Shown: positions 9,728 to 15,613 of the stretch, one piece after another | How positions within the stretch are numbered: the stretch's first letter is position 1 | Layout of the letters: each line of letters starts with the position of its first letter | NCBI GenBank assembly: GCA_015234045.1 | Contig: JADFWU010000036.1 | Coordinates: forward strand, 1 to 32,819 | Source: Magnetococcales bacterium | Lineage (GTDB): Bacteria > Pseudomonadota > Magnetococcia > Magnetococcales > JADFWU01 | Direction: 5' to 3' | DNA length: 32,819 bases | Position numbers and translations under genes: made by a program | The notes under the pieces: generated by a model | The model's database searches: none | Told to the model about the DNA's origin: nothing | Seen by the model: the letters and a program-made list of their open reading frames with translations, nothing else

Positions 9728-9809
9728 TTGGGGCGATGGATGTTATTTTATTCACTGATGGCGTTACGCAATTGCCGGTTGAAACAGGCAGTAAAGCGTG
9801 TCATATGGT

Positions 9810-9887
9810 AGTTTCGTCTAAAATTTGAACAGTCAGCCGTTCCAGCTCTGGTTGTGATCCATTGTCAAACTTTGGATCGAAATTACT
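9810..9887. repeat. short (78-bp) copy of the dispersed repeat element
   Basis: This intergenic segment between tsaD and gpsA matches both flanks of the 155-bp elements at 11543-11856 but lacks their central palindrome. The left arm shares TCGTCTAAAATTTGAACA and 'TCAGCCGTTCCAG'; the right arm shares 'GGTTGTGAT', 'CATTGTC' and 'GGATCGAA'. The ends read TAGTTTCG and CGAAATTACTA, so the imperfect terminal repeats are bounded by TA on each side. It looks like a non-autonomous miniature element or its remnant. No coding sequence lies inside. Confidence 0.8.
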
Positions 9888-9943
9888 ATGCGCTGTATTG
9901 AATTGTTTATGTCAACCTGTATGAAATTATGTCTGGAAACGAT

Positions 9944-10966: not shown

Positions 10967-11051
10967 GGATCATAAAGCAGAATGAAGTGGAAAAATTTGG
11001 CCAAAATTGATACTATTTTCCATAGTTCACTCTGGCCGAAAGGATAGAACG

Positions 11052-11330
11052 ATGGATAAACGTCTTTTTATCGACAAGGGCACCAAGACACGCCAAGAAA
11101 TGGCCGCCTTTTTGAGAACTGTAGCTGACCGGGTAGAATCCGGTGCAATGACACTGAGTCGAGGTGATGAGTCATTACAGCTGGATATTCCTCAAGAGTT
11201 GGGCTTCCGGTTCAATGTCAAAGATGATATTAGTCGGACAAAAACGCAGAGAAAGGTCCAGATCGGATTTCGTTGGGTTCTGGGTGAAACAAAGAAGCCT
11301 GATGTCTTGAATGACATGGTTATATCCTGA
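11052..11330 (+). CDS. amphi-Trp domain-containing protein, 92 aa
   Basis: Small protein matching the amphi-Trp domain pattern (a family of unknown function): a helix 'TRQEMAAFLRTVADRVESGAM', then 'LSRGDESLQLDIP', then amphipathic strands ending in 'QIGFRW' with the terminal Trp that names the family. No signal peptide. ATG at 11052 is chosen because AAAGGA lies about 8 nt upstream; an earlier in-frame ATG at 11007 would add 15 residues with no ribosome binding site. It lies between gpsA and the tandem repeats and may be read from the gpsA transcript. The assignment is from pattern recall, not a search. Confidence 0.75.
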   Translation: MDKRLFIDKGTKTRQEMAAFLRTVADRVESGAMTLSRGDESLQLDIPQELGFRFNVKDDISRTKTQRKVQIGFRWVLGETKKPDVLNDMVIS

Positions 11331-11386: not shown

Positions 11387-11471
11387 TTTCGCATCTCCCT
11401 TTTTTCAAATTTTAGCAGCTGCGGAACTCTTCCTAACCCTGCATCTCTGCCGGAATTTTCCACTTATTTCT

Positions 11472-11503: not shown

Positions 11504-11542
11504 GCCAGCACACACCATTCCAACTATCGCGTCCAATTGTAT

Positions 11543-11697
11543 AGTGATTTCGTCTAAAATTTGAACATTCAGCCGTTCCAGCCCTGGTAATATTTTTGCT
11601 CTGATGATCTGCTTCGCATATCAAAAGCGGCGCAAAAATATCACCAGGGCTTCCACTCAGGTTGTGATTCATTGTCTAATTTCGGATCGAAGTCACT
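11543..11697. repeat. 155-bp repeat element, copy 1 of a tandem pair, with internal palindrome
   Basis: The outer arms are imperfect inverted repeats: AGTGATTTCG at the left end and CGAAGTCACT at the right, flanked by TA. Inside lies a second palindrome: a 20-nt arm at 11580-11599 (starting AGCCCTGG) pairs with 11632-11651 (ending CCAGGGCT) with one mismatch, and a smaller imperfect hairpin (TGATCTGC/GCATATCA) fills the centre. Positions 11549-11691 are identical to the next copy. The structure is typical of a non-autonomous miniature transposable element. The TA flanks suggest an IS630/Tc1-mariner-type parent, but no transposase is present. Confidence 0.85.
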
Positions 11698-11701
11698 ATG
11701 T

Positions 11702-11856
11702 AGTAAATTCGTCTAAAATTTGAACATTCAGCCGTTCCAGCCCTGGTAATATTTTTGCTCTGATGATCTGCTTCGCATATCAAAAGCGGCGCAAAAATAT
11801 CACCAGGGCTTCCACTCAGGTTGTGATTCATTGTCTAATTTCGGATCGAAATCACT
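11702..11856. repeat. 155-bp repeat element, copy 2 of a tandem pair, with internal palindrome
   Basis: Copy 2 begins 159 nt after copy 1 in the same orientation, with only 4 nt between them. Its internal palindrome occupies 11739-11758 and 11791-11810. It differs from copy 1 only at the extreme ends (AGTAAATTCG at the left, CGAAATCACT at the right), and TC replaces the TA after the right end. About 143 consecutive bases are identical between the copies, which indicates a recent duplication or active homogenisation. Confidence 0.85.
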
Positions 11857-11877
11857 CCACGACTTGGCAAATAATGA

Positions 11878-11949: not shown

Positions 11950-13350
11950 TTAATTCACACCAAGGCTTTTCAACTTCCGATGCAATGCCGAACGTTCCAT
12001 ATGGACGACTTCAGCAGTGCGGGAAATATTGCCGTTATTGCGTTCCAAGTGGATGGCAAGATAGGCCCGTTCAAAGGCTTCGCGTGCTTCTCGCAGGCTG
12101 CCGGATTCGATCAGGGTGTTCCATAGGTCACAATCTGGTTCTTCACCATTGTTTTGTTGTCCACTGAGTATGCCGTCCAGATCTTCCGGTTGAATGATTG
12201 GGCCGGAAGCCATGATGAGTAGGCGTTCTACCAGGTTTTTCAACTCACGGACGTTGCCAGGCCAAGTGAATGTTTTTAGCTTTTTGATCGCTTCTGGTGA
12301 GAAGCTGTGTTGCGGAAGATTGCCTTTGTGAAGTTGCACAAAGTGGGTGACAAGTGGTTCGATGTCGTCCAGCCGGTCTAATAATGGTGGCATGTGTAGT
12401 GGGACAACATTTAATCTGAAGAAAAGATCCTGCCGGAAGCGTCCTTCGGCGATCTCCTCTTTCAACTCCTTGTTGGATGCAGCAATCACGCGCACATTGA
12501 CGTGGATTTGTTCACTTCCGCCAACCCGTTCAAAGCGCTGTTCTTGTAGGATTCTTAGAATTTTAGCTTGAGTGGTCAATGACATGTCACCGATTTCATC
12601 AAGAAACAGGGTGCCATTGTTGGCCCGTTCAAAATGGCCGATGCGGACCGATTGGGTGCCGGGTAGGGCACCTTTTTCATGGCCGAACAGTTCACTCTCA
12701 ATCAGTGCTTCAGGAATGGCCGCTGAATTGACCGGAATAAATGGTTTGTCAGACCGATTGGAAAGAGAGTGGATCCGTCGTGCAGCCACCTCTTTACCTG
12801 TCCCATTTTCACCGGTGATCAATACCCAACTGTTGGTTGGTGCAACCCGTGCAATCTGTCCATCCAACGCAGTCATGATTGGTGTCTTACCAACCAAAGT
12901 ATGAGATACCGCCATCTGTGCTTTGAGGTTGCGGTTTTCTCGGGTTAACGCAAGTTGCTGAATGGCACGTTCCAAAAGGATCAAAACACGATCCAGTGAA
13001 AGCGGTTTTTCAAGGAAATCGTAAGCACCAATTTTTGTAGCAGAAACAGCTGTCTCAACCGTACCATGTCCAGACATGATAATGACTGGAATATCACGCA
13101 TGGCCGACACTTCACCATTATCTTCTTTAGATTGAGGTGTATGTTTGATGCGACTCAGCGTTTCGATACCATCCATGCCTTCCATCCAGATATCCAACAG
13201 GATGGTAGAAACGGCCTTGTGTTTGAGAATTTCCAGTGCTTCTTCACCGGAAGAGGCTTCAAGAACCTCATAGGATTCATCTTCCAAAATACCGCGTAAA
13301 CTTATGCGGATGGAGTCTTCATCATCAACGATTAAAATGGTATGAGGCAT
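11950..13350 (-). CDS. ntrX: NtrX-like response regulator with AAA+ and Fis-type domains, non-canonical GAFTGA loop
   Basis: Response regulator paired with the NtrY homologue just upstream. The 466-aa product has a receiver (about 1-125; acidic pair Asp10/Glu11, phospho-acceptor Asp53, Lys115), an AAA+ domain (about 150-385) with Walker A GENGTGKE at 180-187 and Walker B 'GTLFLDEIGD' at 246-255, and a C-terminal Fis-type helix-turn-helix ('NGNISRTAEVVHMERSALHRKL'). The sigma-54-contacting loop reads GALPGT (residues 227-232, bases 12655-12672) instead of GAFTGA, so it probably does not activate sigma-54 promoters. An acidic insertion (about 71-85) lies before receiver strand 4. ATG at 13350 fits the family start 'MPHTILIVDDE'; longer in-frame starts run into ntrY. 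Confidence 0.92.
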   Translation of the reverse strand: MPHTILIVDDEDSIRISLRGILEDESYEVLEASSGEEALEILKHKAVSTILLDIWMEGMDGIETLSRIKHTPQSKEDNGEVSAMRDIPVIIMSGHGTVETAVSATKIGAYDFLEKPLSLDRVLILLERAIQQLALTRENRNLKAQMAVSHTLVGKTPIMTALDGQIARVAPTNSWVLITGENGTGKEVAARRIHSLSNRSDKPFIPVNSAAIPEALIESELFGHEKGALPGTQSVRIGHFERANNGTLFLDEIGDMSLTTQAKILRILQEQRFERVGGSEQIHVNVRVIAASNKELKEEIAEGRFRQDLFFRLNVVPLHMPPLLDRLDDIEPLVTHFVQLHKGNLPQHSFSPEAIKKLKTFTWPGNVRELKNLVERLLIMASGPIIQPEDLDGILSGQQNNGEEPDCDLWNTLIESGSLREAREAFERAYLAIHLERNNGNISRTAEVVHMERSALHRKLKSLGVN

Positions 13351-13360
13351 AGTACCGTTC

Positions 13361-15613
13361 TCAAACGATGTCGGGTTGATGTGTCTGTACGGCAATAACA
13401 GGCAGTTGAATCTTAACAGCAACGCCATCCCATGAGGATGAACGAATACGGATACTACCGCCATGGTCTTCAACAATCTTTTTCACAATTGCCAGTCCAA
13501 GGCCGGTGCCTTTCTTTTTAGTGGTAAAGTAAGGCTCAAACGCACGGTCTCGTTCAGAGGGCGGAATGCCGGGACCGTTGTCGGACACAGTAATCTTAAC
13601 CCATTGATTATTTTCTGATATGGAAGTGTTAATGGCAAGTCGTCCGGCAGAAATACCATCCTCATGATCGGCGAATTTCTCGCGGATAGCTGCAACAGCA
13701 TTGGCAATCAAATTGGTAAATACCTGTTTCATCTGACTGCGATCATAGGGAAACTCCGGCAGACTGTCAGAAAGAACAGTCTGAAGTTGTAGCTGTCTCA
13801 ATTCGGCTTTATGCAGCACCATAACCTCTTCAAGGGCAGAATTGATATCGCCTTGTCTGAGCGAAGGGCGCGGTAGTCGGGCAAAGGTTGAGAATTCATT
13901 AACGAGAATCCGTAACTCTTCCACCTGATTGATAATAGCGTTTGTTCCTTCATCCAACACATGCCAGTCGCGCCGCTCTTCCTCTCCGTGTCGGAGATAT
14001 TTACGCCGCATACGCTGAGACCAGAGTTGAATCGGAGTCAGTGGATTTTTGATCTCATGGGCAATACGGCGGGCAACCTCACTCCAAGCCCGTGTTCTCT
14101 GAGCGACCAGCACTTCACTAAGATCATCAAATGTTGCGATAAATCCACGGCTATGGCCATGGTCATCAGCAAGCAGTGTGATTCTGGTCAGCAAGGTCAG
14201 TGGTTTTTCTTCGCCTTGGATCTGGATCTGAATGGACAGATTGGAGTCCATGGAGGATGCACCAATGGCTCCGCGTTTTGTACGGGAAAGAGCGGTGTTC
14301 AGCAGGTTGCGCAGCGGCAGCAATACCGAGTCTGGCAGAATTTGGGTATACGGATGACCGGAGGCGCGGACATTTTGGGAAATGCCCAAGAGCGTATTCG
14401 CAGCAGGATTGATCAAGGTGATATTGTTGTGCTGATTGACTGCCAAAACGCCGGAGGAGATGTTACGAACTACAGCAGCCATGAACTGACGGCGTTCCTC
14501 CAACAGATCATTAGAGCTTTGAAGTTCCTCCTGGTTCTCTTTGAGTTTGCGGATCATGGCATTAAACGATGCCATCAAAATTGCCAACTCATCATCACCG
14601 GTCACATGCAATTTCACTGACAAATCGCCAGCGGCTACCTTACGTGTACCAATCACAAGACTGGTGATCGGGCTGGTAATATTATCGGCAATTCGAAATC
14701 CAGACCACACCGCACCGAGCAGCAGAAGCAGTGTGATAAGAATGAGAGTGACCGTATGGTTCGTCTTTAGAAGTCCATGAGCCGCTCTCAGCTGATTATA
14801 ATCCACGAAAGCGGTTTCAATGGTCTCCATTTGGGCAAGAATCTGTTGATCAATCCAACGTCCAGTAGAGAGGTACAGATCACTACCCAGTCGCACAACA
14901 GCACGAACCCGTTCACCATTGTCATTGGAAAACATCAACGCCCGGTTCGAACCGGTCTCAAGTGCGGACAGATCCGGCATGGGATCAACTGGTAGATCTC
15001 CAGCAGATGCGATACGCGTACCATCCACACGAAAGATGGCAATTTCATCCAATCCTCTGGCTTTGCGTTCAATCTCCAAAGCGGTACTGGCTTCATCACC
15101 ACCTTGAATCAGCAGGGCTGTACTTAAAGTGCGGTTGCGGGCGATATCTTCGGCATCATGTCGAATTGTTTGTTGATTTTCCAGATAATAAGCGCGTGCA
15201 ACTTCAAGAGAATGAGACAGTGCATGTGAAATACGCTCCGAAAACCAGGAGTCCACACCACGGTTCAACAGCTCAACAGAAAGGATGGTGATCACCAGTG
15301 TCGGCAACAGAGAGAGGGCGACAAACAGAATCACCATTCGGGTCCGAAGTTGGGAGCCTGCCCTTCTTCTCCGACGCTCCAACCAGAGCCGTGAAAAGTT
15401 GCGGATCACCAGAAAGCCCAATGCCAATACTAAAAATAGATTGACATAGAGTAGAACCAAAAAGATCAAACTATAGTCACCGCCACTTACTGTGGACGGA
15501 TCATAGAGGCTTCGGCCTGTCTGAAAGGTGATGATAACGATGGCCAATAACAACAGACGCATCAGCCATCGACGAACCGGTTTTGAAAACGCTATACGCG
15601 GAATAGAGAACAT
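13361..15613 (-). CDS. ntrY: NtrY-like membrane sensor histidine kinase
   Basis: Sensor kinase of the NtrY family, 750 aa. Hydrophobic segments lie at about residues 17-32, 46-70, 93-115 and 287-303, with an extracytoplasmic region from about 116 to 285. A HAMP domain (about 304-360), a PAS domain (about 375-500), a HisKA domain with His519 in 'ARRIAHEIKNPLTPIQL', and an intact HATPase_c domain follow; the N box is 'NLIANAVAAI' (Asn638) and the G1 box 'DNGPGI' (678-683), with 'GTGLGLAIV' after it. All catalytic residues are present, unlike the kinase at 6403-8565. ATG at 15613 begins 2 nt after the stop of the DUF4390 gene; ntrX starts 10 nt downstream. This implies one transcript with lpxC. 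Confidence 0.93.
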   Translation of the reverse strand: MFSIPRIAFSKPVRRWLMRLLLLAIVIITFQTGRSLYDPSTVSGGDYSLIFLVLLYVNLFLVLALGFLVIRNFSRLWLERRRRRAGSQLRTRMVILFVALSLLPTLVITILSVELLNRGVDSWFSERISHALSHSLEVARAYYLENQQTIRHDAEDIARNRTLSTALLIQGGDEASTALEIERKARGLDEIAIFRVDGTRIASAGDLPVDPMPDLSALETGSNRALMFSNDNGERVRAVVRLGSDLYLSTGRWIDQQILAQMETIETAFVDYNQLRAAHGLLKTNHTVTLILITLLLLLGAVWSGFRIADNITSPITSLVIGTRKVAAGDLSVKLHVTGDDELAILMASFNAMIRKLKENQEELQSSNDLLEERRQFMAAVVRNISSGVLAVNQHNNITLINPAANTLLGISQNVRASGHPYTQILPDSVLLPLRNLLNTALSRTKRGAIGASSMDSNLSIQIQIQGEEKPLTLLTRITLLADDHGHSRGFIATFDDLSEVLVAQRTRAWSEVARRIAHEIKNPLTPIQLWSQRMRRKYLRHGEEERRDWHVLDEGTNAIINQVEELRILVNEFSTFARLPRPSLRQGDINSALEEVMVLHKAELRQLQLQTVLSDSLPEFPYDRSQMKQVFTNLIANAVAAIREKFADHEDGISAGRLAINTSISENNQWVKITVSDNGPGIPPSERDRAFEPYFTTKKKGTGLGLAIVKKIVEDHGGSIRIRSSSWDGVAVKIQLPVIAVQTHQPDIV

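Follow-up and report, generated by a model that had tools for sequence, protein, structure and literature searches.

A high-copy MITE family of two size classes in a Magnetococcales genome, with a probable IS630-type parent

The two palindromic repeats near position 11,700 of the window (the whole stretch of 32,819 nucleotides analysed here) are members of a high-copy MITE family that occurs in two size classes, and a probable IS630-type parent was identified for it in the same genome. According to our analysis, it is very probable that the element is a MITE that arose by internal deletion from an IS of the IS630/Tc1-mariner family and that has been moved in trans by the transposase of that IS. 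The features of the window on which the description is based are listed in Table 1.

A repeat search of the window recovered 156-nt repeats at 11542-11697 and 11701-11856, in the same orientation, with 98% identity and a period of 159. This is the pair that the sequence-only reading had described as two near-identical palindromic copies in the same orientation, 159 nt apart. The unit length of 161 nt was set from the family consensus and includes the flanking TA. The palindrome with 20-bp arms that had been seen nested inside was recovered as well, the arms of copy 1 being 20 nt each and 95% complementary with a spacer of 32 nt. The bases common to copies 1 and 2 are TG where TA is expected. 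The pair is located between two convergent genes, one for an Amphi-Trp-domain protein (11007-11330, + strand) and one for a sigma-54 response regulator (11950-13476, - strand). Upstream of copy 1, at 11404-11415, lies TTCAAATTTTAG, a lone exact reverse complement of 12 left-end bases, which is either a chance match or a decayed end. The window also holds a short family member, at 9803-9891, that had been overlooked in the earlier reading.

Table 1. Coordinates of the family members in the window and of their parts.
Feature	Position	Strand	Remarks
MITE copy 1, long form (161 bp)	11540..11700	+	flanks TA / TG
Left terminal inverted repeat, copy 1	11540..11567	+	TATAGTGATTTCGTCTAAAATTTGAACA; matches resident IS630-type element ends, ungapped
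Right terminal inverted repeat, copy 1	11673..11700	-	from alignment with IS ends
Nested inner palindrome, copy 1	11580..11651	.	arms 11580-11599 and 11632-11651
MITE copy 2	11699..11859	+	head-to-tail with copy 1, two bases in common; left tip TAGTAAATTCG, right tip CACTCCA (decayed)
Nested inner palindrome, copy 2	11739..11810	.	arms 11739-11758 and 11791-11810
Third family member, short form (about 86 bp)	9803..9891	+	without inner palindrome; between TsaD and glycerol-3-phosphate dehydrogenase (gpsA-like) genes

In order to define the family, the search was extended to the 117 contigs (3.65 Mb) of the genome from which the window comes. At least 45 full-length places were found among the scored candidates, and pattern searches that allowed up to three mismatches returned 108 matches to the left half and 93 to the right half, with 0 matches for the reversed control. 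A profile search of 113 fetched stretches yielded 81 complete copies, of which 68 are long and 13 short (86 bp), as well as about 60 partial or truncated ones; these counts are lower bounds, as copies were collected by pattern and region and many contigs end within a copy. Because the same sequence is present more than 100 times in the genome, the palindrome pair cannot be a product of chance. The repeats also call for caution, as they are points at which assemblies of this lineage break. Outside this genome, the family was not matched in 47 genomes of the same order, nor in phages or plasmids, and the exact core patterns gave 0 matches in GTDB contigs and 0 in IMG/VR contigs. The family itself is new and belongs to a well-known kind; it has so far been found in this genome only.

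The consensus measures 161 bp with the TA at each end included (TATAGTGGTTTCGTCTAAAATTTGAACAG...TTTCGGATCGAAATCACTATA), and its ends read TATAGTGnTTTCG / CGAAATnACTATA. Imperfect outer repeats next to TA had been noted before and are borne out across the family. The outer inverted repeat is strong over 13 bp and extends to about 28-30 bp in the alignment with the IS ends, which is longer than was first seen. Of 78 complete copies, only 48 (60-65%) have a perfect TA on both sides, and at one locus (L045) a copy is nested at the internal TA of another, with the TA duplicated (GGTGATA / TAGTG...GACTA / TACTTTTGC). Six-frame translation of the consensus gave no long reading frame; open stretches reach about 45 codons at most, with nothing recognisable in them. 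The elements thus combine short multi-copy dispersal, terminal inverted repeats and target-site duplication with the lack of an encoded transposase, in agreement with the earlier proposal of a non-autonomous miniature family.

The inner palindrome sets the two size classes apart. Imperfect direct repeats (TTCCAGCCCTGG / TTCCACTCAGG) lie on both sides of it in the long form, and the junction in short copies is CCCTGG or CCCAGG, as expected from a slipped deletion. The short copies are not more divergent than the long copies (p = 0.68), which favours neither direction of change between the forms. Most simply, the 86-bp form would have lost the inner palindrome between the direct repeats and then spread. 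A pattern of hypervariable tips and constant interior, suggested by the 45 best copies, weakened at 68 copies (interior 95%, tips 84-88%), and the variability of the tips probably combines subfamily and end-tolerance effects with ordinary decay. Of 50 truncated copies, about 14 end close to the apex of the inner hairpin, at model positions 77-99 by an approximate placement of the ends, possibly owing to palindrome-linked breakage or to an assembly effect. Smaller tandem repeats within copies were observed at L033 (1311-1434), L084 (2139-2309) and L111 (1354-1485) and comprise 60-bp right-half, 12-bp (CCACCAGGGCTT) and 35-39-bp left-end repeats.

The IS630-type transposase that had been postulated elsewhere in the genome was found there as remnants whose terminal repeat of 28-30 bp matches that of the MITE in register and is located where the transposase gene ends. 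The remnant on contig C90 (G000:C90, L047) encodes a DDE_3 domain (PF13358, E 5.7e-18), and its transposase frame stops about 10 bp inside AGAAATGACTATA, which is the MITE right end with one mismatch. The IS end on this contig agrees with the left and right ends of the MITE at 20-21 of 28 positions without gaps. A second remnant, an N-terminal IS fragment at C77:14083-14304 (L159) with an open frame cut by the contig end, starts with TATAGTCATTCCAATCTAAAATCTAACAGT and agrees with the MITE ends at 19-22 of 30 positions; for most unrelated TATAG sites, only 5-10 of the 25 bases that follow TATAG agree. IS relatives in genomes of the same order share this layout of the ends, TATAG[TC]...ACA with ACA at positions 26-28. 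Compared by eye, the bases just inside the ends correspond side for side (ACAGT on the left, ACATT/ACAAT on the right), and the MITE may thus have retained both the left and the right end of an IS. A further IS630-type fragment was noted on contig C20 (L160).

No intact transposase was found in the assembly, where every IS piece recovered is frameshifted, broken or cut by a contig end. As the C77 piece is open up to the contig end, the assembly may lack an intact IS that is present in several copies. No counterpart of the MITE interior was recognised within the IS. We infer that the MITE copies were moved by this transposase or by one closely related to it, and the family is probably mobilised by a resident IS630-family element. 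We posit that a non-coding derivative would have kept the left and right ends of the IS, and that the DDE transposase of the IS would cut and paste it in trans into TA, thereby duplicating the TA. More than 100 copies and matching IS630-type ends were found, the two observations on which the sequence-only reading had made its element family depend.

With respect to the origin of the window pair, both copies hold GGTAATATTTTTGCTC, a variant absent from all other fetched copies, which implies that one was derived from the other. This supports the recent duplication that had been proposed from their near-identity, and the pair would represent a local event. Most likely, copy 1 would have given rise to it through insertion into the flanking TA or through unequal crossing-over or slippage. 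A five-copy head-to-tail array with a period of 161 was observed at C29:108817-109623 (L046). Its later copies have one set of odd tips in common (TATGGTTATTTTG), and the array therefore grew through duplication from within. Both the window pair and this array fit local duplication or insertion beside an existing copy. The private variants common to the window copies would equally be expected if nothing except a local tandem duplication had taken place and no mobile family existed, and to this explanation we assign practically no probability, as it is ruled out by the genome search with its more than 100 copies dispersed across contigs. Very improbable, too, is the reading of the element as a palindrome of the REP/REPIN type that owes its spread to a single-strand (HUH) transposase instead of an IS630 element. 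Such palindromes share with the family their intergenic position, high copy number and occasional arrays, but the long terminal inverted repeats starting with TA, the TA target duplication and the matching ends of a DDE_3 IS are not REPIN traits.

A different kind of alternative concerns function, namely that the host has recruited the MITE as a transcript element whose long RNA hairpin blocks read-through, or is cleaved by an RNase III-like enzyme, at the 3' ends of convergent genes. The element folds very stably on both strands (+ strand -60.1 kcal/mol versus -31.5 +/- 3.6 for shuffled sequences, z = -8.0; - strand z = -7.0). With genes called crudely, 80 of the 81 complete copies fall between genes. 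Among gaps of 20-700 bp in the same stretches, 20 of the 41 that hold an element are convergent, compared with 8 of the 55 that do not (Fisher p = 0.0005), an excess that fits such a role; the comparison is limited by the crude gene calls and the few control gaps. We nevertheless consider this alternative unlikely. In the complete long copies, the inner stem displays no compensatory changes; substitutions are one-sided and pair-breaking, and positions 53 and 100 vary independently (A-C 29, G-C 27, A-T 6, G-T 5), which argues against a maintained RNA structure. The element also lacks a U-run terminator, and no Rfam match at gathering score was obtained in the window. Nothing in these alignments points to a selected RNA. 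The intergenic and convergent bias is most simply explained by survival where insertion harms least, which accounts for the location as well. Less probable again is the broader view that the inner palindrome was kept for a gene-end role, as transcript punctuation or a protein-binding site, so that an IS would have spread the family through the genome as a regulatory part for 3' ends. If the elements do shape transcript ends, one mobile part would be common to dozens of convergent gene pairs.

Read as an IS630-derived MITE, the family can be compared with several known systems. RUP, the repeat unit of pneumococcus, measures 107 bp, has 108 intergenic copies, IS630-Spn1-like ends and a TA target, and has been proposed to be mobilised by IS630-Spn1 (PMC2229807, PMC3049150). 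In both cases a short intergenic MITE of about 100 copies has a TA target and terminal repeats that resemble those of a resident IS630-family element; no shared sequence is claimed. RUP differs in its 107 bp and 9-bp terminal repeats, compared with 161 or 86 bp, repeats of about 28 bp and a nested palindrome here. Like the ends described here, those of Correia elements start with TATAGTGG. These elements, also called NEMIS, occur in Neisseria and are about 107-155 bp long, with 24-bp terminal repeats, a terminal TA and strong stem-loops (PMC2229807); RNase III processing and promoters have been reported for them (PMC2229807, PMC3049150). Compared by description, they are similar to the present family in size, TA-ended terminal repeats and strong stem-loops, but differ in host and interior. 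The MITEs of Thiomargarita nelsonii, from a genome rich in mobile elements, are likewise TATA-ended and hairpin-forming, but their parental IS was not identified (PMC4853749), whereas a matching IS630-type end is present here. Such a link is missing for many bacterial MITEs. RUP and the Correia elements are the closest known kinds.
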